From: Chitinophagaceae bacterium
Lineage (GTDB): Bacteria > Bacteroidota > Bacteroidia > Chitinophagales > Chitinophagaceae
DNA: 38,527 nucleotides
Direction of reading: 5' to 3'
Assembly: GCA_028288585.1 (NCBI GenBank)
Contig: JAQBNL010000063.1
Coordinates: 1 to 38,527, forward strand
In this document: positions 7,188 to 33,787 of the stretch, in pieces
Layout: every line of letters begins with the position of its first letter
Numbering within the stretch: the stretch's first letter is position 1
Translations under genes and position numbers: made by a program
Notes under the pieces: model-generated
What the model was told of the DNA's origin: nothing
What the model saw: the letters and a program-made list of their open reading frames with translations, nothing else
Databases searched by the model: none

Positions 7188-8504
7188 ATGCTAACAGAAC
7201 AGGAAGCAAAAAAATTAATTAATAAGATTCTGTCATATTCTACAGCAGATGAAACAAGTGTTATAATTAATGGAGGCCGTAGTGGAAATATCAGGTATGC
7301 CCGCAATACAGTATCAACCAGTGGTGAAACAGATGATATGACTTTTTTGGTAACCACTAATTTTGGAAAAAGAAGTGGCAATGCAACCGGCAATGAATTT
7401 AATAGCCAGGCTCTTGAGAAAACTGTAAGAAATGCAGAAGAGGTTGCAAGACTGGCACCTGAGAATCCTGAATATGTTTCACTACCAGGTCCACAACAAT
7501 ATTTAAAAACAAATACTTTTTCTCAAAATACAGCTGATATAACTGCGCAATTCAGAGCCAATGCTGCAATGAAAAGTATTCAACCCTGCATCAATAAAAA
7601 CTTAGTAGCTGCGGGTTATCTTGAAGATAGCACGGGATTTACAGCCATCGGTAACAATAAAGGGTTGTTTGGGTACAACAAAGAAACATCGGTTAGTTTT
7701 TCAGTTTCAGTGAGAACAAAAGATGATAAAGGTTCCGGATTAGGAACGCAATCGCTTACAGATGCTTCTAAGTTAGATACAAAATCGCCAACAGAAATAG
7801 CAATGCAAAAAGCTATTGCATCTGCTAGTACTATTGAAATGCCACCGGGAAAATATACAGTTATACTGGAACCGGCAGCTTTGGGATTTAGTAGTTTTCT
7901 AAATTTTTTTATGGCCTCACTTGATGCCCGCAATGCAGATGAAGGCCGAAGCTATTTCAGTAATAAAGGAGGTGGTACAAAATCAGGAGAACAATTATTT
8001 GATAAAAAACTAACTATCTATTCTGATCCAACTTTTGCTGAACTTCCTGGTGCTCCATTTTCTAATGATGGGCAACCGCAGCAAAAAGTAGTTTGGGTTG
8101 AAAATGGTGTTCTGAAAAATCTTACCTATAGCAGGTATTGGGCAGAAAAAAAAGGTGTAAAAGCTATTCCATTTCCCAATGGAGTTATTATAGAAGGAGG
8201 GAATCAATCGCTTGAGGAGATGATAAAAAATTCTGATAAAACTATTTTAATTACTTCAACCCATTACATGCGTATGGTTAATCCTCAGAATATTTTAATA
8301 ACAGGATTAACACGTGATGGATTATTTTATATTGAGAACGGAAAGATAACACGTGCTTTAAAAAACTTCCGATTCAATGAAAGTCCAATAAATATGTTTA
8401 GGAATCTTGAAGCTCTTGGTAATCCTGTCAGGATTGGAAATAGTTTTATACCTCCAATGAAAATTAAGGATTTTAATTTCACATCTATTTCCGATGCGGT
8501 TTAA
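7188..8504 (+). CDS. tldE: TldE/PmbA-type metalloprotease partner subunit
   Basis: The 438-residue protein belongs to the TldE/PmbA branch: it has the N-terminal NARNTVSTSGETDDMTF-like region, the central PGKYTVILEPAALGFSSFLNFF segment, and DGQPQQKVVWVENGVLKNL, with the C-terminal INPQNILITGLTRDGLFYIENGKI-like block. As expected for TldE it lacks the HExxxH zinc motif, which is supplied by TldD upstream. There is no signal peptide, unlike the partner, which leaves open whether the pair assembles before export. The start ATG at 7188 has no Shine-Dalgarno sequence. A copy of hairpin repeat R2 begins shortly after the stop and may act as the transcript's 3' structure. Confidence 0.92.
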   Translation: MLTEQEAKKLINKILSYSTADETSVIINGGRSGNIRYARNTVSTSGETDDMTFLVTTNFGKRSGNATGNEFNSQALEKTVRNAEEVARLAPENPEYVSLPGPQQYLKTNTFSQNTADITAQFRANAAMKSIQPCINKNLVAAGYLEDSTGFTAIGNNKGLFGYNKETSVSFSVSVRTKDDKGSGLGTQSLTDASKLDTKSPTEIAMQKAIASASTIEMPPGKYTVILEPAALGFSSFLNFFMASLDARNADEGRSYFSNKGGGTKSGEQLFDKKLTIYSDPTFAELPGAPFSNDGQPQQKVVWVENGVLKNLTYSRYWAEKKGVKAIPFPNGVIIEGGNQSLEEMIKNSDKTILITSTHYMRMVNPQNILITGLTRDGLFYIENGKITRALKNFRFNESPINMFRNLEALGNPVRIGNSFIPPMKIKDFNFTSISDAV

Positions 8505-8531
8505 TTTATAGCTTCCCTGGTGGCTTTGCTG

Positions 8532-8600
8532 TTGCTTTGCTTCGGTTGTTGGTCACAAGACCAAACAACGGCTGGGCTAAGGAAGACCAACGAGGACGGA
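8532..8600. repeat. Dispersed hairpin repeat R2, copy 2
   Basis: The core hairpin (GTTGTTGGTC / GACCAAACAAC) is identical to copy 1 and is followed by GGCTGGGC and GAAGACCAACGAGGACGGA. It lacks the longer upstream flank shared by copies 1 and 3. It lies between the convergent tldE and NTF2-like genes. Confidence 0.8.
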
Positions 8601-8621
8601 AAGAAAACACTTCTTATGAAC

Positions 8622-9098
8622 TTACTTCGTTTGCATATTTACTGGCGGTCCGGGACGAGTTGAATGTCTCTCAGCTATGAGCCAACCTTTATTTCCCTTA
8701 TACCAAATATCTGTAAGTACGAATTGTCCGCTTCTATCTTGTCCACGCACAGTTGCCTTTTGTGTAAACATCAACATGGCTATTGCAGTGTTGCCATACA
8801 CATTCACTTTTATATCATCAATGGTAAATGATTCTGTCACATAATCTTTTAACATATTTAGCCAGCCTTGTTTAGGAACAATTTGAATAGTAGGCACGCC
8901 TTGCACTGCGTAAGCCAAAAAGTAAGTGTCAGCCTGGAACATTTTTGTTTGCATGGTATCCTGAGTTTTGATTGCAGCAGCAAATGATTTCTCCAGATCT
9001 ATAATTTGTTCCTGCGGAGTTTTGGAAGACTGTTGTTGACCATTGGTTATTGTCGCAAATCCTATTAACGCCAGCATCAGGCTGATAAAGTGTCTCAT
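8622..9098 (-). CDS. Exported NTF2-like (SnoaL/DUF4440) protein
   Basis: The 158-residue product has a signal peptide (MRHFISLMLALIGFATITNGQ) and a single NTF2-like domain: an N-terminal helix with IIDLEKSFAAAIKTQD, a conical beta-sheet, and the closing DIWYKGNKGWLIAERHST strand typical of DUF4440. Such proteins form small-molecule pockets; no substrate can be proposed. A second NTF2-like gene of about the same size (9384-9836) lies upstream on the same strand, separated by repeat R2 copy 3; the two are distant paralogues rather than a recent duplication. Confidence 0.82.
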   Translation of the reverse strand: MRHFISLMLALIGFATITNGQQQSSKTPQEQIIDLEKSFAAAIKTQDTMQTKMFQADTYFLAYAVQGVPTIQIVPKQGWLNMLKDYVTESFTIDDIKVNVYGNTAIAMLMFTQKATVRGQDRSGQFVLTDIWYKGNKGWLIAERHSTRPGPPVNMQTK

Positions 9099-9921: not shown

Positions 9922-10505
9922 TTATAATAAAAATTCAATTTGAAGTAAACCTATTTGTTTGCCATAATAATAATCTCTTGCGCTGCTGTAAATATATTCT
10001 TCCGCTTTTTCAACAATGCCAGCTTCAACAGGATTGTTATGTATGTAGTTTAATTTCTGAGCCGCAAAATCAGGCGTTAATATTATCTTAGGTTGATTAT
10101 CCTGTTGCCAAAACTGGTAATCAGTATTTCTGCTGTTTGCATTTCCTGCTTCTTTAAAAATTTGTATCATCCCCGCCTGAATGACCGGTCGGGCAGGCAT
10201 TCTTTACGGCTTTCTGCAGGATGGGTTTGTATGGCTTTTATAATTTGCTTGCTGGTATATTTTTTAAGATCACCCAGCACATCACTAACATTATTTTGTT
10301 TTGCAGATATAATTAAATGCACATGGTTGCTCATAATGCACCAGGCATATATAACCAACCCTTTTTCTGCCTGGCAATATTTTAAACTATCTATTACTAT
10401 ATCACGATATTCTTTTCTGCTGAATACATCTACCCAACCCACAACAGCAAAGCTTACAAAATAGGTAGCACCCTGGTCTGTAATTTTATATCCTCCGGCA
10501 GACAT
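9922..10505 (-). pseudogene. REP-associated tyrosine transposase (RAYT), frame broken by 26-bp insertion
   Basis: Two overlapping frames together make one Y1/HUH transposase of the RAYT (TnpA-REP) type. The N-terminal part (10167-10505) carries the HUH motif as H61-V-H63 in CIMSNHVHLIIS and the likely catalytic tyrosine Y83 in LKKYTSKQI. The C-terminal part (9922-10200) carries the family's FWQQDNQPK and KLNYIHNNPVEAG blocks and SSARDYY. Removing the 26 bases at 10172-10197 restores one frame reading ESRKEWMIQIFKEAG, the expected joining sequence. The insertion creates both a premature TGA and a new ATG, so two polypeptides might still be made. RAYTs are single-copy, domesticated transposases that act on REP hairpins; a matching pair of hairpins lies just upstream of the gene. 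Confidence 0.9.
10172..10197. mobile_element. 26-bp GC-rich palindromic mini-insertion inside RAYT
   Basis: The insert is an imperfect palindrome: on the minus strand it begins CCTGCC and ends GGCGGG, with ACCGGT at its centre. It is far richer in G+C than its surroundings. Its ends are inferred from the open frame recovered when it is removed; they could shift by a base or two because of neighbouring G residues. No transposase could fit in it, so it must have been placed by another factor. Confidence 0.7.
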
Positions 10506-10572
10506 AATATTTTTTTACAAGATAGTTTATAAGCTCAAATTATAAATGGAGCGCTAATTATAATGGAGCGCT

Positions 10573-10595
10573 GTCCTGAGTTTGTAACTCAGGAC
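10573..10595 (+). repeat. REP hairpin next to RAYT
   Basis: A perfect 10-bp inverted repeat, GTCCTGAGTT and AACTCAGGAC, around a TGT loop. It is preceded by GCT and lies 68 bp upstream of the RAYT start. The same hairpin in inverted orientation is at 10689-10711. This is the arrangement expected for the substrate of the adjacent RAYT. Confidence 0.85.
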
Positions 10596-10688
10596 TTATA
10601 AACTTTAATGTTCGAATATATGTTTGAAGTTGCATAAATCTTATGGTTTTTTTTATTTAAATAGTATAGAGCGAAGATTATGGAGAAT

Positions 10689-10711
10689 GTCCTGAGTTAC
10701 AAACTCAGGAC
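10689..10711 (-). repeat. Inverted REP hairpin (iREP)
   Basis: This is the exact reverse complement of the hairpin at 10573-10595 (arms GTCCTGAGTT / AACTCAGGAC, loop ACA) and is followed by AGC, the complement of the GCT preceding the first copy. The two form a head-to-head pair about 93 bp apart, resembling a BIME unit. Confidence 0.85.
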
Positions 10712-10754
10712 AGCAATACTTTTATTATTTTAAGATACTACGGATAGCATGGGG

Positions 10755-10868: not shown

Positions 10869-11738
10869 TTATAAAATAAGACTTTTAAATAGTTGTAAAT
10901 TTTCAATCATTGGTGTCTCTACAGTTAGAAAAAGGGTCCTGTCAAAATTCTCTTCTTTATACTTTGAAGTGTTTTTTATTTTGTTTATATAAAGAAAGAA
11001 AATACTTAAAAAATCATGGCCGTGAATATGGTGTCTAATTTCCAGTGTAAGCTTTTGCTTCAGCTCGTTATATGCTTCCATAATTTTTTGACTGTCTTTA
11101 GTAAAGTCATTTTTACTAATAAATTTTTCTAAGTATTCAATTTCATTAAAGTTTATTTTAGCATCCAGCTTGTTAATTTTAAGGTTTCTATCAAAATCTA
11201 CTAATTGGGCTGAACGAAAGTTTAATTCTCTTAAAAGCCTTACGCAAAAAAGGGATTTTAATACTTTTGATAATTGTGAAAGAACAAAAGCGCCATTTAC
11301 AGGAAAATTTCTAATTCCTATTTTTAGAAATTTATCAATTACTTGTTCACAGAATAAATACGATTCCAAACAGCTAAAATCTGTCTTTAACAGTTTGCTG
11401 TTATTAATCGATTTGATATAATCATCGAAATCTTTGTCAACAATGCACTTAACTTCTGTTTGTGGTAGATTTTCATTTAATAATTTTGAAAGGACAATTA
11501 CTTTATTCCTATTAGAATTTACATCAAGACCTTCAAAATAATCGATAGGCAACTCAGAAAAATCAATTATGGAAATTGGAATAACTTTTTTATTACATCC
11601 TTTATTTTTGAGATAATTATCGATGAATACTTTATCGGAATTACCTTCCACATAAATATCTCGTATTCCTTTTTCTAGCTTGTAGAGCGCAAGTATTTCT
11701 CGGTGTTTTTTTCTAAGCTCATCCATTGAAATCTTCAA
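10869..11738 (-). CDS. DUF4435/TOPRIM-like effector, PARIS AriB-like
   Basis: The 289-residue protein shows the acidic signature of the DUF4435 TOPRIM-like nuclease fold: E31 in DIYVEGNSDKVFI, D101/D103/D105 in CIVDKDFDDY, and the TDFSCLESYLF block (E125) typical of DUF4435. In PARIS anti-phage systems the DUF4435 protein AriB is held by the ATPase AriA and, when an anti-restriction protein such as phage Ocr is sensed, is released to cleave host tRNA. The start overlaps the end of the ATPase gene by 20 bp, indicating coupled translation. An internal ATG at codon 5 is an alternative start. The PARIS assignment rests on the domain pair and order; OLD-like or other ATPase/TOPRIM pairs are the alternatives. 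Translation was not checked against known AriB sequences. Confidence 0.8.
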   Translation of the reverse strand: MKISMDELRKKHREILALYKLEKGIRDIYVEGNSDKVFIDNYLKNKGCNKKVIPISIIDFSELPIDYFEGLDVNSNRNKVIVLSKLLNENLPQTEVKCIVDKDFDDYIKSINNSKLLKTDFSCLESYLFCEQVIDKFLKIGIRNFPVNGAFVLSQLSKVLKSLFCVRLLRELNFRSAQLVDFDRNLKINKLDAKINFNEIEYLEKFISKNDFTKDSQKIMEAYNELKQKLTLEIRHHIHGHDFLSIFFLYINKIKNTSKYKEENFDRTLFLTVETPMIENLQLFKSLIL

Positions 11739-13065
11739 GTTTAGTCACTTTATCAAGGTTAGAGGCAAGAAGTTCTAAGGAGTGTGTTGACAATATATAT
11801 TGTATATTTTTTTCATTGCTAAATCTTAGAAGTGTATCTATAAGATTTCTTTGCCACTTTATATTAAGCGAAATTTCAGGCTCATCAATAATAAATATAG
11901 TTGCAACTTCTGCTGAAGTTATTGTGTTAATAAATAATAGTAGCAATTGCTTTTCTCCAGAAGAAAGTAAATTAAAATCAATTCCATCACCTCCTTTTTG
12001 TTTTAATGTAAATCCTTTGTTCAAACTGAATGAGATTTCCTTATTAGAAAAGTATTCATTAATTGAATTGATGAAAAGATAGAGAGTGTCCATTAACTGT
12101 TGTAGTGCTTCTAACTTTGCATTAATACTTTCAATATATGGCGCAATTATCGTCCGTAAATTCTTAAGTTGAGAATTAGTTTTAGATTGATTAATACTTT
12201 TTTTAATTGTATTAGAATCAAAAGATTCGATAAGGCCTAGTTTGACATAAGGAGTCACTTTTTGTTCTACAATTTCAATTTCTAAGATTAATTCTTGTTT
12301 TGTTTTCGTTTTTTTAATTGATTCGTTTGGCTTAAAAACATTCTTGATTAGGTCTGTGTAAATTACTTGGGAATTTTTCTCTCCAGTTCGTGAACCTGAA
12401 ATTACCTTCGTTCTAATCCAGTCAAATAGTCTTTCAATCGCTGGTTCCAATGCAAGTTTTTTTTCATCAAGCATTTTCTTCATGCCCACTCTCTCATAAT
12501 CTTGTGCAAGAATTAAATCAGATTCATTTAGAAATACACGACCGTAGGATTCTGGTTCATGGATCGAAGAGGTTATACTATTTAGTATTTTTCTGTCGTC
12601 AGATAAGTAAAAGACTGAAATATTTAAATCACGAATGAAGAAAAGTATTTGTTTGAAGATCCTATCTTCTTTACTTCCTTCTTCTAAACTAATTGCGTTA
12701 TCTGGGGTTGTTTTTAAAGATACTGTATACAGAAGTTTTGATTTTTCTAATACATAATATGTATAGCTGCCAATACGATTTTGCCCTTCTCTTACCGCTC
12801 CTATTTCGATACCGTTTTCAAAAGTGATCGAGAACTTCTTGAATTTAGTTTCTGCAATTTTTGTTTTATATCCACTTCTGTCTCTTGAAGAGAGTAACCA
12901 AAAAATAAGTTTAAGGAGTGTGGTTTTTCCTGATCCATTATCACCATAAATGATCAGAAGTTGGGAAATGTCTGTAGCGTTTTCGAAGGGAATATCATAT
13001 GTATAGTAGCCAAATAGCTTATCAACTTTTATTTCTTTAATGGATAAAGGATTTGTTTTTTTCAT
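11719..13065 (-). CDS. AAA/ABC-type ATPase, PARIS AriA-like
   Basis: The 448-residue protein is an SMC/ABC-like AAA ATPase. The Walker A is G41-DNGSGKT (residues 41-48), the ABC signature is LLSSGEKQLLLLF around 367-377, Walker B with catalytic glutamate is IFIIDEPEIS (D394, E395), and the H-loop is ILSTHS. Between them lie about 250 residues of helical, charged sequence. It has no nuclease domain of its own, which separates it from full-length OLD proteins; the TOPRIM-like part is supplied by the overlapping downstream gene. This is the domain make-up of PARIS AriA, the sensor and scaffold of the system. The operon lies between a RAYT and a peptidase gene, with dispersed repeats at both flanks, consistent with a mobile defence cassette. 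Confidence 0.82.
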   Translation of the reverse strand: MKKTNPLSIKEIKVDKLFGYYTYDIPFENATDISQLLIIYGDNGSGKTTLLKLIFWLLSSRDRSGYKTKIAETKFKKFSITFENGIEIGAVREGQNRIGSYTYYVLEKSKLLYTVSLKTTPDNAISLEEGSKEDRIFKQILFFIRDLNISVFYLSDDRKILNSITSSIHEPESYGRVFLNESDLILAQDYERVGMKKMLDEKKLALEPAIERLFDWIRTKVISGSRTGEKNSQVIYTDLIKNVFKPNESIKKTKTKQELILEIEIVEQKVTPYVKLGLIESFDSNTIKKSINQSKTNSQLKNLRTIIAPYIESINAKLEALQQLMDTLYLFINSINEYFSNKEISFSLNKGFTLKQKGGDGIDFNLLSSGEKQLLLLFINTITSAEVATIFIIDEPEISLNIKWQRNLIDTLLRFSNEKNIQYILSTHSLELLASNLDKVTKLEDFNG

Positions 13066-13462: not shown

Positions 13463-15586
13463 TTAATATGGTAGCCCTAGTGCTTTTTGATAAGCCTTAA
13501 TATCAGGGGCACTGCCGGTAAAGCTTTTATACATTGTATTATAATCAAGCGAACTGCCACGAGACAATACCATGTCGCGGAAACGCTGGCCATTGGCTCT
13601 TGTTAACCCTCCATTTTTTTCAAACCATGCATATGCATCTTCGGAGATCATTTTTGTCCATTGATAAGAATAATATCCTGCAGCATAACCACCGGCCCAA
13701 ATATGTGAGAAATAAGTAGAACGGTAGCGTGGCGGGGCTTGTGGCAGGTAGAGGCCTGTTGTCAGCAACGCATCTTTTTCAAACTGGTCAACATCTTTAA
13801 CCATACTTGACGGCGCAAGTTTATGCCATTGCATATCAAGTAATGAACCGGCCATTGCTTCGGTTGTTGCATAACCGGAATTAAAATCACCGGCTTTTTT
13901 AATTTTATCGATAAGCTTTTGTGGTATGGGCTCACCGGTTTTATAATGAACTGCATAATGTTTTAAAATTATAGGATCAAGCGCCCAATGTTCATTGAAC
14001 TGTGATGGGAACTCCACAAAATCCCGTGCTACATTGCCGGCCAGGCTAGGGTAGGTAAGGTTTGTAAACATTGCATGTAAGGCATGCCCAAACTCATGGA
14101 ACATTGTTATTACATTAGTAAAACTTATTAATGTCGGTTGCCCCGGTGCGGGCTTTGTAAAATTGCAAACATTATAAACTGTTGGCTTTGTACCCAGCAG
14201 TTTTGATTGCGAAACAATACTACTGCACCATGCGCCACCATTCTTGTTATCACGTTTAAAATAATCGCAATAAAATAAAGCCATGGATCTTTGATCTTTA
14301 TCAAAAACTTCAAACACTCTTACATCCTCCTGGTAAACAGGTATGTCTTTTCGCTCTTTAAATGTGATGCCATACAATTGATTGGCTGCATAAAAAACAC
14401 CATTCTCCAATACTTTACTAATTTCAAAATAGGGTTTTGTTTCATTGTCATCAAGATCATATTTTTCTTTACGCACCTGCTCAGAATAATAATCCCAATC
14501 CCATGGTTCTAATTTAAATCCGCCATGTTGTTTATCTATCAGCGCCTGTATGTCTGCAGCTTCCTGTTTGGTTTTAGCAGCAACTGAGGGTACTACCTTT
14601 GCAAAGAATTTGTCTACAACTTCCGGTGATTGCGCCATACGGTCCATTAATTTCCATTTGGCATAATTTTTAAATCCCATAATCTTTGCTTTTAATGCTC
14701 TTATTTCAGCAAGCCGAGATACAACCTGGCGGGTATCATTGGAGTCGTTATGTTCTGCTCTGTTCCATGATGCCTCAAAAAGTTTTTGTCGTGTTGCACG
14801 AACTGACAATGATTGAAGAGCCGGTTGCTGCGTAGTATTTTGCAATGGGATAACCCATTTTCCTGTTAAGCCACGGGCCTTTGCATTTTGTGCAAAAGCA
14901 TCTATATCACTTTGCGGAAGCCCGGCAAGTTCTGATACATCATTTATTATTACTGCCCCTGCTTTGCCTGCATTAATTATCATGTTCGCAAAGCGGGTTG
15001 TTAGCGTAGCCTCTTCGGTATTTAATTTCTTAAGTGTTTCCTTATCGGCATCAGCAACTCTTGCGCCTGCCAATACAAATTGCTGGTAATAATTTTCAAT
15101 TAACTTTTTGCCTTCTGCATCAAGCTTTAATGTAGAGCGGTTGTTGTACAATGTTTCAATACGCTTAAACAATTTAGGATTCAGGTTTACAGCATCTCTT
15201 AGTGCAGAGAGTTTGGGAGCCATTTGCTGCCTTACCTGCTGTAGGAAACTATTGGTATTTGCACCGGCAACCATACCGAATACTGCACTCACTCTTTGCA
15301 ATAATTCGCCACTTTTTTCCATTGCAATAATTGTATTTTCAAAAGTTGGTGGTGCAGGATTGTTGGCGATATTTTCTATTTCTGCTAATTGTTGTTTTAT
15401 ACCTTCTTCAATGGCGGGTTTGTAATCTGCATCCTTTATTTTATCAAAAACAGGAGCCCGGTAAGGCAATGTACTTACGTATTTAAAAGGATTAGAATTG
15501 GGAAGATCATTACCCGTATTCTGAGAATTGCTTACCAACGGCGAAACAAGAATGAAGAAAAGAATGGCTGAAATAAATGTTTTCAT
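13463..15586 (-). CDS. Exported M3 family peptidyl-dipeptidase (Dcp-like)
   Basis: The 707-residue protein has a signal peptide (MKTFISAILFFILVSPLVSNSQ) and the full length of an M3 oligopeptidase. The zinc site is HEFGH, H497-E498-...-H501, in ITMFHEFGHALHAMF, with the third ligand in the following EFPSQFNEHW segment. The N-terminal pattern (NPFKYVSTLPYRAPVFDKIKDADYKPAIEEGI) and C-terminal YFSHIWAGGYAAGYYSYQWTKM are those of Dcp, which removes C-terminal dipeptides; E. coli Dcp is cytoplasmic, whereas Bacteroidota often have exported forms. Single gene with its own terminator. Confidence 0.93.
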   Translation of the reverse strand: MKTFISAILFFILVSPLVSNSQNTGNDLPNSNPFKYVSTLPYRAPVFDKIKDADYKPAIEEGIKQQLAEIENIANNPAPPTFENTIIAMEKSGELLQRVSAVFGMVAGANTNSFLQQVRQQMAPKLSALRDAVNLNPKLFKRIETLYNNRSTLKLDAEGKKLIENYYQQFVLAGARVADADKETLKKLNTEEATLTTRFANMIINAGKAGAVIINDVSELAGLPQSDIDAFAQNAKARGLTGKWVIPLQNTTQQPALQSLSVRATRQKLFEASWNRAEHNDSNDTRQVVSRLAEIRALKAKIMGFKNYAKWKLMDRMAQSPEVVDKFFAKVVPSVAAKTKQEAADIQALIDKQHGGFKLEPWDWDYYSEQVRKEKYDLDDNETKPYFEISKVLENGVFYAANQLYGITFKERKDIPVYQEDVRVFEVFDKDQRSMALFYCDYFKRDNKNGGAWCSSIVSQSKLLGTKPTVYNVCNFTKPAPGQPTLISFTNVITMFHEFGHALHAMFTNLTYPSLAGNVARDFVEFPSQFNEHWALDPIILKHYAVHYKTGEPIPQKLIDKIKKAGDFNSGYATTEAMAGSLLDMQWHKLAPSSMVKDVDQFEKDALLTTGLYLPQAPPRYRSTYFSHIWAGGYAAGYYSYQWTKMISEDAYAWFEKNGGLTRANGQRFRDMVLSRGSSLDYNTMYKSFTGSAPDIKAYQKALGLPY

Positions 15587-17263: not shown

Positions 17264-17767
17264 ATGACTACATCAACTAAAAAAGAAGAATCATCTACGC
17301 TTCAATTTGTACTTGACAGCAAGGACCTGGCGATACTGCACTTGCTGCAAAAGAATGCAAGGATTACTGTAAAAGAAATTAGCGATAAAATGCATTTGAG
17401 CACAACGCCTGTTCATGAAAGGATAAAGCGGATGGAGGCATCGGGTGTGATAAAACAATATGCAACATTGGTGGACCATACCAAAGTTGGTAAGAGTTTG
17501 ATGGTGATATGTTATGTTTCTTTAAAAGAGCATAGCAAAAATGCGGGAACAAAATTTATAAAACTTATTCATGCATTGAACGAAGTGATCGAGTGTTATT
17601 CTATTTCGGGTGAGTTTGATTTTATGCTTAAGGTTGTTTGCGAGGACATGAATGCATATTATGATTTTCATGTAAATAAATTAAGCTCGATTGAGAATAT
17701 GGGGCATGTGCAGAGTGTGTTTGTGATGGGGAGGATTAAGGAAACTACTGAAGTGGTACATGTTTAG
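17264..17767 (+). CDS. Lrp/AsnC family transcriptional regulator
   Basis: The 167-residue protein has the family architecture: an N-terminal winged helix-turn-helix (DSKDLAILHLLQKNARITVKEISDKMHLSTTPVHERIKRMEASGVIKQYAT, about residues 18-67) and a C-terminal RAM/effector domain (SLMVICYVSLKEH... CYSISGEFDFMLKVVCEDMNAYYDF). Such proteins assemble into octamers and respond to amino acids. Divergence from ahcY suggests, without proof, a response to methionine-cycle metabolites. A perfect palindrome in its own leader fits autoregulation. Confidence 0.93.
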   Translation: MTTSTKKEESSTLQFVLDSKDLAILHLLQKNARITVKEISDKMHLSTTPVHERIKRMEASGVIKQYATLVDHTKVGKSLMVICYVSLKEHSKNAGTKFIKLIHALNEVIECYSISGEFDFMLKVVCEDMNAYYDFHVNKLSSIENMGHVQSVFVMGRIKETTEVVHV

Positions 17768-23305: not shown

Positions 23306-24682
23306 TTGTTATACGCAATTGTTGATATTGAAACTACAGGAGGATATGCCGCTGCAGGCGGCATTACAGAAGTTGCCGTTGTTATTACGGATGGAGAAAA
23401 AATAATAGACAGGTTTGAGACTTTGATAAATCCTGTTTATACCATTCCCAGGTATGTAGAATCATTAACGGGCATTACCAATGCGATGGTAGAAGATGCC
23501 AGGCATTTTAAAATGGTAGCCGGTGAATTGTATGAATTGCTTTGCGATAAAATTTTTGTTGCACACAATGTAAATTTTGATTACTCCTATTTAAAATATC
23601 ATTTTAAAGAAGCAGGATATGAGCTTGATTGTAAAAAACTTTGTACAATAAGATTGGGCAGGCAAATTCTGCCGGGATATAAAAGTTATAGTCTGGGAAA
23701 TTTTTGCAGGGAGATTGGTATCCCGATTGAACAGCGTCACAGGGCGGGAGGCGATGCTGATGCTACGGTAAAATTGTTTCATCATCTTTTGCAGAAAGAT
23801 ACCAACAGCCACATTCAAAATATGCTGAAGGTAAAGAGCAAAGAACAACACCTTCCGCCGAATTTACCTGCAAAACAAATTAAGCAGTTGCCACAAAATC
23901 CGGGTGTATATTATTTTCATGATAACAAGGGGAAAGTTATTTACGTCGGAAAAGCGAAGAATTTATCAAAGCGTGTCAACAGTCATTTTGCAAATAATAA
24001 ACCGGGAAAACAAAAGCAGGAATTTCTCAGGAATATTCACAGCATAACTTATAAGACTACGGCAACGGAATTAATGGCCTTCATTCTTGAAAGCACAGAA
24101 ATAAAAAAGTTTTGGCCTGATCAAAACCGCAGCCTTAAAAGGTTTGAGCAGGCATACGCTTTATATTCTTTTGAAGACAGGAATGGTTACCTGCGGCTTG
24201 CGATTGAAAAAAAGAATAAAAATATTAAGCCCTTATACACTTTTAATTTATTGGTTGAAGGACATAATTTGTTGAGAAAACTTTCACACCAGTTTCAACT
24301 TTGTCCTAAGCTTTGTTTTTTGCAGCATGATAATATTGAATGCGAAGGAAGGAATGATGGAAGGTGTGTAGGAAGTTGTGATAAAAAAGAATCACCGGAA
24401 GAATATAACCGCCGGGTTACGGAATGCATTGAACAATTGCATAAAGAATTACCCACATTTGCTTTAGTAGATTATGGACTAAATGTAGAAGAGCAAAGCT
24501 GCATTTTAATGGAGAAAGGCAGATTTTATGGAATGGGTTATTTGCCTTCGCACGTGAGCATCAGCGGTATCGATGATCTTAAAAATTATATAACACCTTA
24601 TTCAGAGAACGATTATATAAGAGGCCTGGTTTACCAGCACGCAGTAAAATTTCCACACAAAAAAATTGCTTTGATAAATTGA
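23306..24682 (+). CDS. DnaQ-like exonuclease / GIY-YIG (UvrC-type) nuclease fusion
   Basis: The 458-residue protein joins two nuclease domains. Residues 1-165 form a DEDDh 3'-5' exonuclease: D7-I-E9 in YAIVDIETTG, the AHNVNFDYSYL block and H/D of HRAGGDADATVKL. Residues about 195-275 form a GIY-YIG nuclease as in UvrC/Cho: NPGVYYFHDNKGKVIYVGKAKNLSKRV. A Cys-bearing C-terminal region (CPKLCFL, CEGRNDGRCVGSCDKKE) follows. Similar fusions are known as DNA-repair nucleases, Cho-like incision plus trimming; the role here is inferred. The start is TTG at 23306: a TAA lies nine codons upstream in frame and no ATG is available before the exonuclease motif. Confidence 0.92.
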   Translation: MLYAIVDIETTGGYAAAGGITEVAVVITDGEKIIDRFETLINPVYTIPRYVESLTGITNAMVEDARHFKMVAGELYELLCDKIFVAHNVNFDYSYLKYHFKEAGYELDCKKLCTIRLGRQILPGYKSYSLGNFCREIGIPIEQRHRAGGDADATVKLFHHLLQKDTNSHIQNMLKVKSKEQHLPPNLPAKQIKQLPQNPGVYYFHDNKGKVIYVGKAKNLSKRVNSHFANNKPGKQKQEFLRNIHSITYKTTATELMAFILESTEIKKFWPDQNRSLKRFEQAYALYSFEDRNGYLRLAIEKKNKNIKPLYTFNLLVEGHNLLRKLSHQFQLCPKLCFLQHDNIECEGRNDGRCVGSCDKKESPEEYNRRVTECIEQLHKELPTFALVDYGLNVEEQSCILMEKGRFYGMGYLPSHVSISGIDDLKNYITPYSENDYIRGLVYQHAVKFPHKKIALIN

Positions 24683-32986: not shown

Positions 32987-33787
32987 TTATTTTTTGCTTT
33001 TTACTTTTATAAAAATTCCATCAACAGAAGCATTCAGACCAAAAAATCCATCACAGTCTCCATATCCTTTGGTATAATCGATAAATATAAAATCTCTTAA
33101 AAACTTCACCCTAAATTCACAACTATCTGAATTAGGTATTTTATAAATAAATTGATTATTATAAATAGCAACAGTGTCAGTATCAATAGAAGCAATATTT
33201 CTGGAAGGATCACTTGTAACTGATGAAATGTCAAATGAAATCTTATCATCTGTGATTTTTGTCACATTCAATCCTCCTTGATAACCTTTTTCTCCATAGG
33301 CATAAGAGTAATTACCTGCTATATCTTTTGGTTGAAAGCTTGTATCAATATTGGTTAATAGAGTGTCTTTAGCAGATAATTTAAACTTTAATTCTTTCTG
33401 ATTTTTAGTTGACGCCCATATTCCTTCAAATGCACTATCCAACTTAGAAAAATTAAATACACCAGTTATTGTTCCGTCCCTTTGATATTCACAGATTCGT
33501 ATATCTCCTTCCTTTGGAATGTTACCCAAAATTCTAATTGGAGTTGAACTTTTACTTTTTGTATAGAACAATTCGCCTTGTATCAAACTGTCTTTTACAA
33601 TTACCCATAAAAATATGGGTATGTTAGAATTGATATTACCAACCCAATAATGAATACTATTCTGACTTTGTGAATTATTAACTTCTGAATTGTTTAAAGT
33701 ACTGTCTTGATTGTTTGCTTGAGTAGAATTAATTTTTGTTTGACAACTAAAAATTAAAAGAGCTACAGCGAATAAACAAAATTTCAT
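32987..33787 (-). CDS. Lipoprotein of unknown function, 266 aa
   Basis: The signal ends in the lipobox LIFSC, followed by a Gln/Asn/Ser-rich linker (STQANNQDSTLNNSEVNNSQSQN) and two beta-rich parts: one with SIHYWVGNINSNIPIFLWVIVKDSLIQGELFY, the other starting IAGNYSYAYGEKGYQGGLNV. The pattern is of a surface or periplasmic lipocalin-like beta protein, but I do not recognise a family. Its stop is 5 bp from the downstream DUF386 start. Codon use is AT-rich like its neighbours. Confidence 0.8.
   Translation of the reverse strand: MKFCLFAVALLIFSCQTKINSTQANNQDSTLNNSEVNNSQSQNSIHYWVGNINSNIPIFLWVIVKDSLIQGELFYTKSKSSTPIRILGNIPKEGDIRICEYQRDGTITGVFNFSKLDSAFEGIWASTKNQKELKFKLSAKDTLLTNIDTSFQPKDIAGNYSYAYGEKGYQGGLNVTKITDDKISFDISSVTSDPSRNIASIDTDTVAIYNNQFIYKIPNSDSCEFRVKFLRDFIFIDYTKGYGDCDGFFGLNASVDGIFIKVKSKK

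Follow-up and report, generated by a model that had tools for sequence, protein, structure and literature searches.

A probable divergent PARIS-type (AriA-AriB) operon in a Chitinophagaceae bacterium

Two adjacent minus-strand genes of a Chitinophagaceae bacterium very probably form a PARIS-type (AriA-AriB) abortive-infection operon that is divergent from the system studied in E. coli. They lie in a stretch of 38,527 nucleotides (contig JAQBNL010000063.1), which is referred to here as the window. The initial annotation had already proposed a divergent PARIS, and this reading is supported by the PADLOC models for AriA and AriB, by profile matches to the PDB, by the predicted fold of AriB, by the acidic residues of the nuclease, and by the gene order. 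As sequence, fold, acidic residues, and gene order agree, membership in PARIS is well supported. The window pair consists of an AriA-type ABC ATPase and, directly beside it, an AriB-type TOPRIM nuclease with the acidic residues in place. PARIS has been reported in 5.2% of genomes, spread over diverse clades (PMC9122126). Another divergent member is therefore to be expected.

Operon layout and gene boundaries

The minus strand carries both open reading frames as annotated. The ariA-like gene (11719-13065) encodes an ABC/AAA_21 ATPase of 448 aa, recognized by PADLOC AriA, Pfam AAA_21, and a PDB profile match. The ariB-like gene (10869-11738) encodes a TOPRIM nuclease, recognized by PADLOC AriB, profile, and fold. 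The nuclease has 289 aa if translation begins at the TTG at 11738 and 285 aa from the ATG at 11726. The annotated overlap of 20 bp between the two genes holds with the TTG start and is reduced to 8 bp with the ATG start. The ATG (residue 5) may be the true start because the relative L024 begins within one residue of it in alignment A4 and residues 1-5 of the structural model have a pLDDT <50. Judged from the sequences, the pairing of the two genes is not due to chance, since homologues of both stand side by side in other genomes. By analogy with E. coli, ariA is the predicted sensor and scaffold and ariB the predicted effector.

The AriA ATPase

The ATPase motifs were all found at the residues annotated earlier. 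They comprise Walker A GDNGSGKT at residues 41-48 (12922-12945, minus strand), the ABC signature SSGEKQ at residues 368-373 (11947-11964, minus strand), Walker B DEPEIS at residues 394-399 (11869-11886, minus strand), and STHS at residues 426-429, read from the window sequence. Across 19 aligned rows, G41, N43, G44, G46, and K47 of Walker A, S368-E371 of the signature, and D394-E397 of Walker B are invariant.

In PADLOC, two AriA models rank first (3.1e-29 and 4.3e-24), and a third AriA model reaches 3.3e-21; in Pfam, AAA_21 matches at 3.8e-22. At E<=1e-10, AriA models match all 19 rows of alignment A6. The PtuA models of Septu do likewise (19/19) and also score on the window ATPase, so the ATPase by itself is not decisive for the family. 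A profile of 19 AriA rows found solved AriA (8ux9/8v45) as its top match in the PDB, with 3.8e-31 over profile positions 10-441, and the next non-AriA protein at 5.4e-11. Even the single window sequence retrieved AriA at 1.8e-13. The chains of 8ux9, 8v45, and 8v46 are presumably E. coli AriA-AriB, which fits the presence of E26 in the alignment.

The AriB nuclease

PADLOC AriB matches the nuclease at 1.8e-12, followed by a weak match to PDC-M38B (0.018). The best Pfam match, DUF3226 at 0.083, is not significant, and no NCBIfam model matches. Pfam DUF4435 gave no match at E<=1, so that the earlier label "DUF4435 gene" is correct in the broad sense only. Since fold and profile both point to AriB, this miss is read as a limit of the reach of the Pfam model. 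Among the 20 rows of A4, DUF4435 matches nine at E<=0.1 (best 1.6e-10), and PADLOC AriB matches 14 at E<=0.01. PADLOC AriB gave no match at E<=1 for L035, L037, and L039; these are therefore called AriB-like by alignment. The 2022 search rule for two-gene PARIS sets a DUF4435 score threshold of 27 (PMC9122126), which serves detection and is not a property of the system. The window AriB does not score >=27, and the rule would overlook the pair because DUF4435 is unmatched.

A PDB search with the single nuclease sequence did not find AriB. With a 16-row AriB profile, two distinct sequences were matched at E<=10, both of them AriB (8.2e-6 and 1.9e-5); the match to solved AriB spans positions 8-158 of 291 only. 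A structural model was built with AlphaFold2 from 20 rows (pLDDT 93.0, pTM 0.87), and an earlier model from a two-row alignment (pLDDT 49.3) was discarded. Foldseek returned 630 PDB matches to the model at E<=10. Two of them reach E<=0.001, 8ux9_A (2.6e-8) and 8v46_D (1.4e-7), and both are AriB. The superposition on solved AriB is moderate, with a TM to query of 0.58 and 0.59, an rmsd of 5.5-6.1, and 13-14% identity. None of the 494 Foldseek matches in a viral library reached 0.001.

The alignment of this 16-row profile, with hand-counted numbering, places V-E31-G of the window nuclease on V-E26-G of solved AriB, D101-K-D103 on D88-R-E90, and LESYLF on LENYFF. E31 is encoded at 11646-11648 and D101-K-D103 at 11430-11438, both on the minus strand. 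A separate alignment, A7 (20 rows, window included), shows no variation at E31, G32, D101, and D103. Alignment A4 also has 20 rows and contains two remoter proteins where A7 has two others; here, D103 is nearly invariant and is replaced in L053 by E, as in solved AriB. The initial annotation had listed E31 together with D101/D103/D105. E31, D101, and D103 stand, and D105 drops out as it is not conserved in A7. An acidic triad is thus found in a predicted structure whose fold matches solved AriB, with E31/D101/D103 as the set in place of D101/D103/D105. The E26A variant of E. coli AriB is inactive on tRNA (PMC12409363). We infer that D88 and E90 are the partners of E26 in solved AriB.

Relatives and phylogeny

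The AriB protein was searched in 298 genomes of the order, and three genomes matched; the PADLOC AriB model was searched in 395 genomes of the phylum, and 31 matched, the window's own genome being included in both counts. These searches gave a comparison set of 21 AriB and 13 AriA proteins, window included, in which the window has just two close relatives, L002 and L024 (about 50% identity for AriA and 36-37% for AriB). A contig scan of genomes with a three-row AriA alignment yielded at least 31 loci. Of the 31 listed, 16 (L034-L049, 28-74% identity) align with most of the ATPase, and L050 aligns with a large N-terminal part of it; the matches of the other 14 are weak or partial. Within these 14, the downstream gene of L052 and L053 is matched by PADLOC AriB.

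The 16 listed full-length loci are labelled as Bacteroidota, Ignavibacteriota, Pseudomonadota, Acidobacteriota, Planctomycetota, Elusimicrobiota, Actinomycetota, and Cyanobacteriota. Fifteen of these loci, from seven phyla, have room downstream of AriA, and each has an AriB-like frame there; the Elusimicrobiota locus (L042) ends at a contig edge and was left out of this count. The frames of L034 (173 aa) and L048 (214 aa) are short. The window, L002, and L024 carry an AriB-like frame after AriA as well. The label "AriB-like" is given by alignment for all frames and is backed by PADLOC AriB in 14 of the 20 A4 rows. In the class, the 16-row AriB profile matched four of 395 genomes, own included. 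The matches in the own genome and in G376 were strong and the other two weak (1.2e-6 and 8.5e-4), so close AriB relatives are rare in the class.

Among the matches listed, the closest is that of Flavisolibacter nicotianae (L034), with 74% identity for AriA and 63% for AriB over the part present. Its AriB frame (11340-11861) stops after 173 aa, and 118 bases of contig remain. Because the stop precedes the contig end, this AriB may be shortened, next to an AriA of full length.

A tree of the 19 relatives against 10 other AriA proteins and solved AriA required two changes, and a single origin was recovered in 3% of 200 bootstrap trees. L042 groups with the other AriA proteins (89/68), and several branches are long. 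The only firm group is a set of seven rows around the window (98/97). A monophyletic new subtype is not claimed, since the 19 relatives form no single firm group.

Of 98 pattern matches in viral contigs, none proved to be an AriB relative at 1e-3. A search of 50,697 phage records for AriB (at 0.01) and one of 72,556 plasmid records for AriA (at 1e-20) likewise gave no match. Given these searches, there is no sign of phage or plasmid carriage. Ten ORFs neighbouring the relatives at 10 loci were compared with PADLOC at 1e-5. Two matched, an AbiGi-like protein at L036 and an RtcR-type regulator at L037, and no restriction enzyme was present in this sample, which is small, picked by size, and perhaps includes spurious ORFs. 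The AbiGi-like protein (8105-9082, PADLOC 7.5e-29) is encoded upstream of the operon in Dyadobacter.

Genomic context and acquisition

The operon was probably acquired horizontally, because it is AT-rich (29.2% GC vs 36.8% for the window) and AriA was not found in the 19 other genomes of the genus, many of which are incomplete. At E<=1e-20, the window's own genome is the only one of 20 in the genus with AriA; counting it, 11 of these genomes are >=90% complete and <=5% contaminated. The genes upstream of the F. nicotianae operon differ from those at the window operon. Together with the GC content and the absence in the genus, this fits horizontal acquisition. The neighbouring peptidase gene (13463-15586), which we take to be M3-type, was found in two of 19 other related genomes. 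Apart from the peptidase gene, the 11 kb round each copy contain no ORF of >=90 aa that matches a window ORF at 1e-5, and the boundary of the insertion could therefore not be placed.

A REP-associated tyrosine transposase (RAYT) gene at 9922-10505 is split over the overlapping frames 10167-10505 and 9922-10200, which match NCBIfam NF047646 at 4.1e-18 and 2.1e-9. It is adjoined by two inverted copies of a 23-base element (10570-10714). The inverted pair recurs once in the assembly, on contig C95 (1780-1864), with no further copy within two mismatches. Inspection by eye of the ORFs (>=70 aa) beside the C95 copy revealed no recognizable transposase. Elsewhere in the window, a markedly AT-rich gene of 266 aa (32987-33787, 28.8% GC) has no PADLOC match at 1e-5.

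Comparison with other ATPase-nuclease systems

In OLD and in GajA of Gabija, the ATPase and TOPRIM domains are located in one protein. A system of this wider type, with a separate TOPRIM nuclease that acts on DNA and not on tRNA, is very unlikely here. The combination of an ABC ATPase with TOPRIM is also found in OLD and GajA (PMC12409363). The window ATPase matches GajA at 8.9e-10 and an ATPase-Toprim model at 2.7e-15, and Pfam OLD-like_TOPRIM weakly matches two of the 20 A4 rows (best 0.019). Against this, the window has the two domains in separate genes, neither PADLOC (E<=10) nor Pfam (E<=1) matches the nuclease to OLD or Gabija, and the predicted nuclease fold matches only AriB at E<=0.001. 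Best hits to OLD or Gabija had been named beforehand as grounds to abandon PARIS; the best models are those of AriA and AriB (AriA 3.1e-29 vs GajA 8.9e-10).

It is very unlikely that the pair descends from PARIS and serves another purpose, for example as a toxin-antitoxin that keeps a mobile element in place. The AT-richness of the operon and its occurrence in one of 20 genus genomes would suit such a role, and some PDB entries label solved AriA "antitoxin", but the split RAYT transposase is the only mobile-element gene seen adjacent, and deletion of ariA or ariB was not toxic in E. coli (PMC9122126). A Septu- or retron-like system, with PtuA and another effector, is hardly credible and close to refuted by the search with the modelled AriB fold: PtuA models reach 1.3e-21 on the ATPase, but two AriA models outscore every PtuA model, and where Septu (PtuAB) would have the PtuB HNH nuclease beside the ATPase, the second gene of the window is AriB-like by profile and fold.

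Proposed mechanism and tRNA specificity

The preferred PARIS reading rests on several similarities to the E. coli system. Both have two genes, an ABC ATPase and then a TOPRIM nuclease, with an ATPase homologous over nearly its whole length, the same predicted nuclease fold, and E31, D101, and D103 at the positions of E26, D88, and E90. In the PARIS structure, AriA forms a hexamer to which up to three AriB are bound (PMC11455837). AriB is released on sensing Ocr, T4 Arn is also answered, and the AriB dimer cuts tRNA-Lys (PMC11455837). By homology, the same scheme may be assigned to the window pair, under which the two proteins would associate and respond to a trigger, and the nuclease would bind metal, cleave tRNA, and protect against phage. 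The AriA ATPase ring would bind and silence the AriB nuclease. The probable trigger is an acidic DNA-mimic or anti-restriction protein of a phage, whose binding to AriA would set AriB free as a dimer. E31, D101, and D103 would hold two metal ions with which the dimer cleaves host tRNA, and translation would stop.

Some of the differences from E. coli AriB (13-14% identity) concern residues modelled in contact with the tRNA. In E. coli AriB, K60 and K64 lie on a small helix and, in the published model, grip the anticodon loop; their exchange for alanine abolishes the defence of E. coli PARIS against T7, and R28 is modelled at the D-loop (PMC12409363). The corresponding loop of the window nuclease (residues 59-75, before N76-R77; 11514-11564, minus strand) contains no K/R and five D/E, so K60 and K64 have no basic counterpart there. 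Among 18 proteins (window included, the remote A7 rows L003 and L013 left out), this loop has no K/R in eight, one in five, and two or three in five. The loss of basic residues is not uniform, as some relatives retain K/R. The position of R28 is N33 in the window and K or R in four of the 18. The pairing of residues in the loop is uncertain because loop length varies and the anchor N76-R77 reads NR in 12 of the 18.

These exchanges suggest that the tRNA contact differs from that of E. coli AriB. As the K60/K64 pair has no counterpart, the tRNA target may differ as well, and the window AriB perhaps cuts a different set of tRNAs. A broader proposal is held tentatively, at somewhat less than even confidence: the relatives would be PARIS systems with changed specificity. 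Since the anticodon-loop "tweezers" are gone, AriB would cut tRNAs different from the Lys(UUU)/Thr(UGU)/Asn(GUU) set, and AriA would sense a non-Ocr trigger from the phages of its own hosts. If so, the window system would withstand the phage tRNAs by which E. coli PARIS is overcome.

Restriction and other defence genes

The initial annotation had seen no restriction system in the window. This is borne out by PADLOC, which matched no restriction model among the 30 window proteins scanned, a set that leaves smaller ORFs aside. The same assembly encodes a type IIG restriction-methylation enzyme of 1311 aa on contig C84 (L072, 4284-8219; PADLOC 6e-260, Pfam Eco57I 4.8e-38). PARIS could therefore act as a second line behind restriction in this cell. 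A resolvase-domain gene follows the type IIG enzyme.

A PglZ match in the same genome belongs to a protein that combines a response regulator with PglZ and was not taken as BREX; it presumably resembles the PorX regulator. As for type I restriction, one of two N6_Mtase matches has a PrmC_N domain, the other is the type IIG enzyme, and HSDR_N has no match in the genome. E. coli PARIS works without a type I restriction or BREX system (PMC9122126).

Two further window genes have PADLOC matches. The gene at 23306-24682 (458 aa) matches the candidate PDC-S48 at 3.9e-42 and DEDDh at 2.1e-32 and is read as a DEDDh exonuclease domain. The gene at 17264-17767 has weak matches of the Csa3/CARF type (best 3.4e-7), read as a DNA-binding domain.

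Conclusion

Among the titles and abstract openings listed for the PARIS and DUF4435 literature, none describes these relatives. Current models detect them in part (14 of the 20 rows of A4 with PADLOC AriB, nine with Pfam DUF4435). They add diverse members, with AriA in at least eight phyla and the pair confirmed in at least seven, to a defence family for which the mechanism has been worked out mostly in E. coli. As natural variants, the relatives lend themselves to asking what residues of AriB select the tRNA and what part of the AriA surface recognizes the phage trigger.
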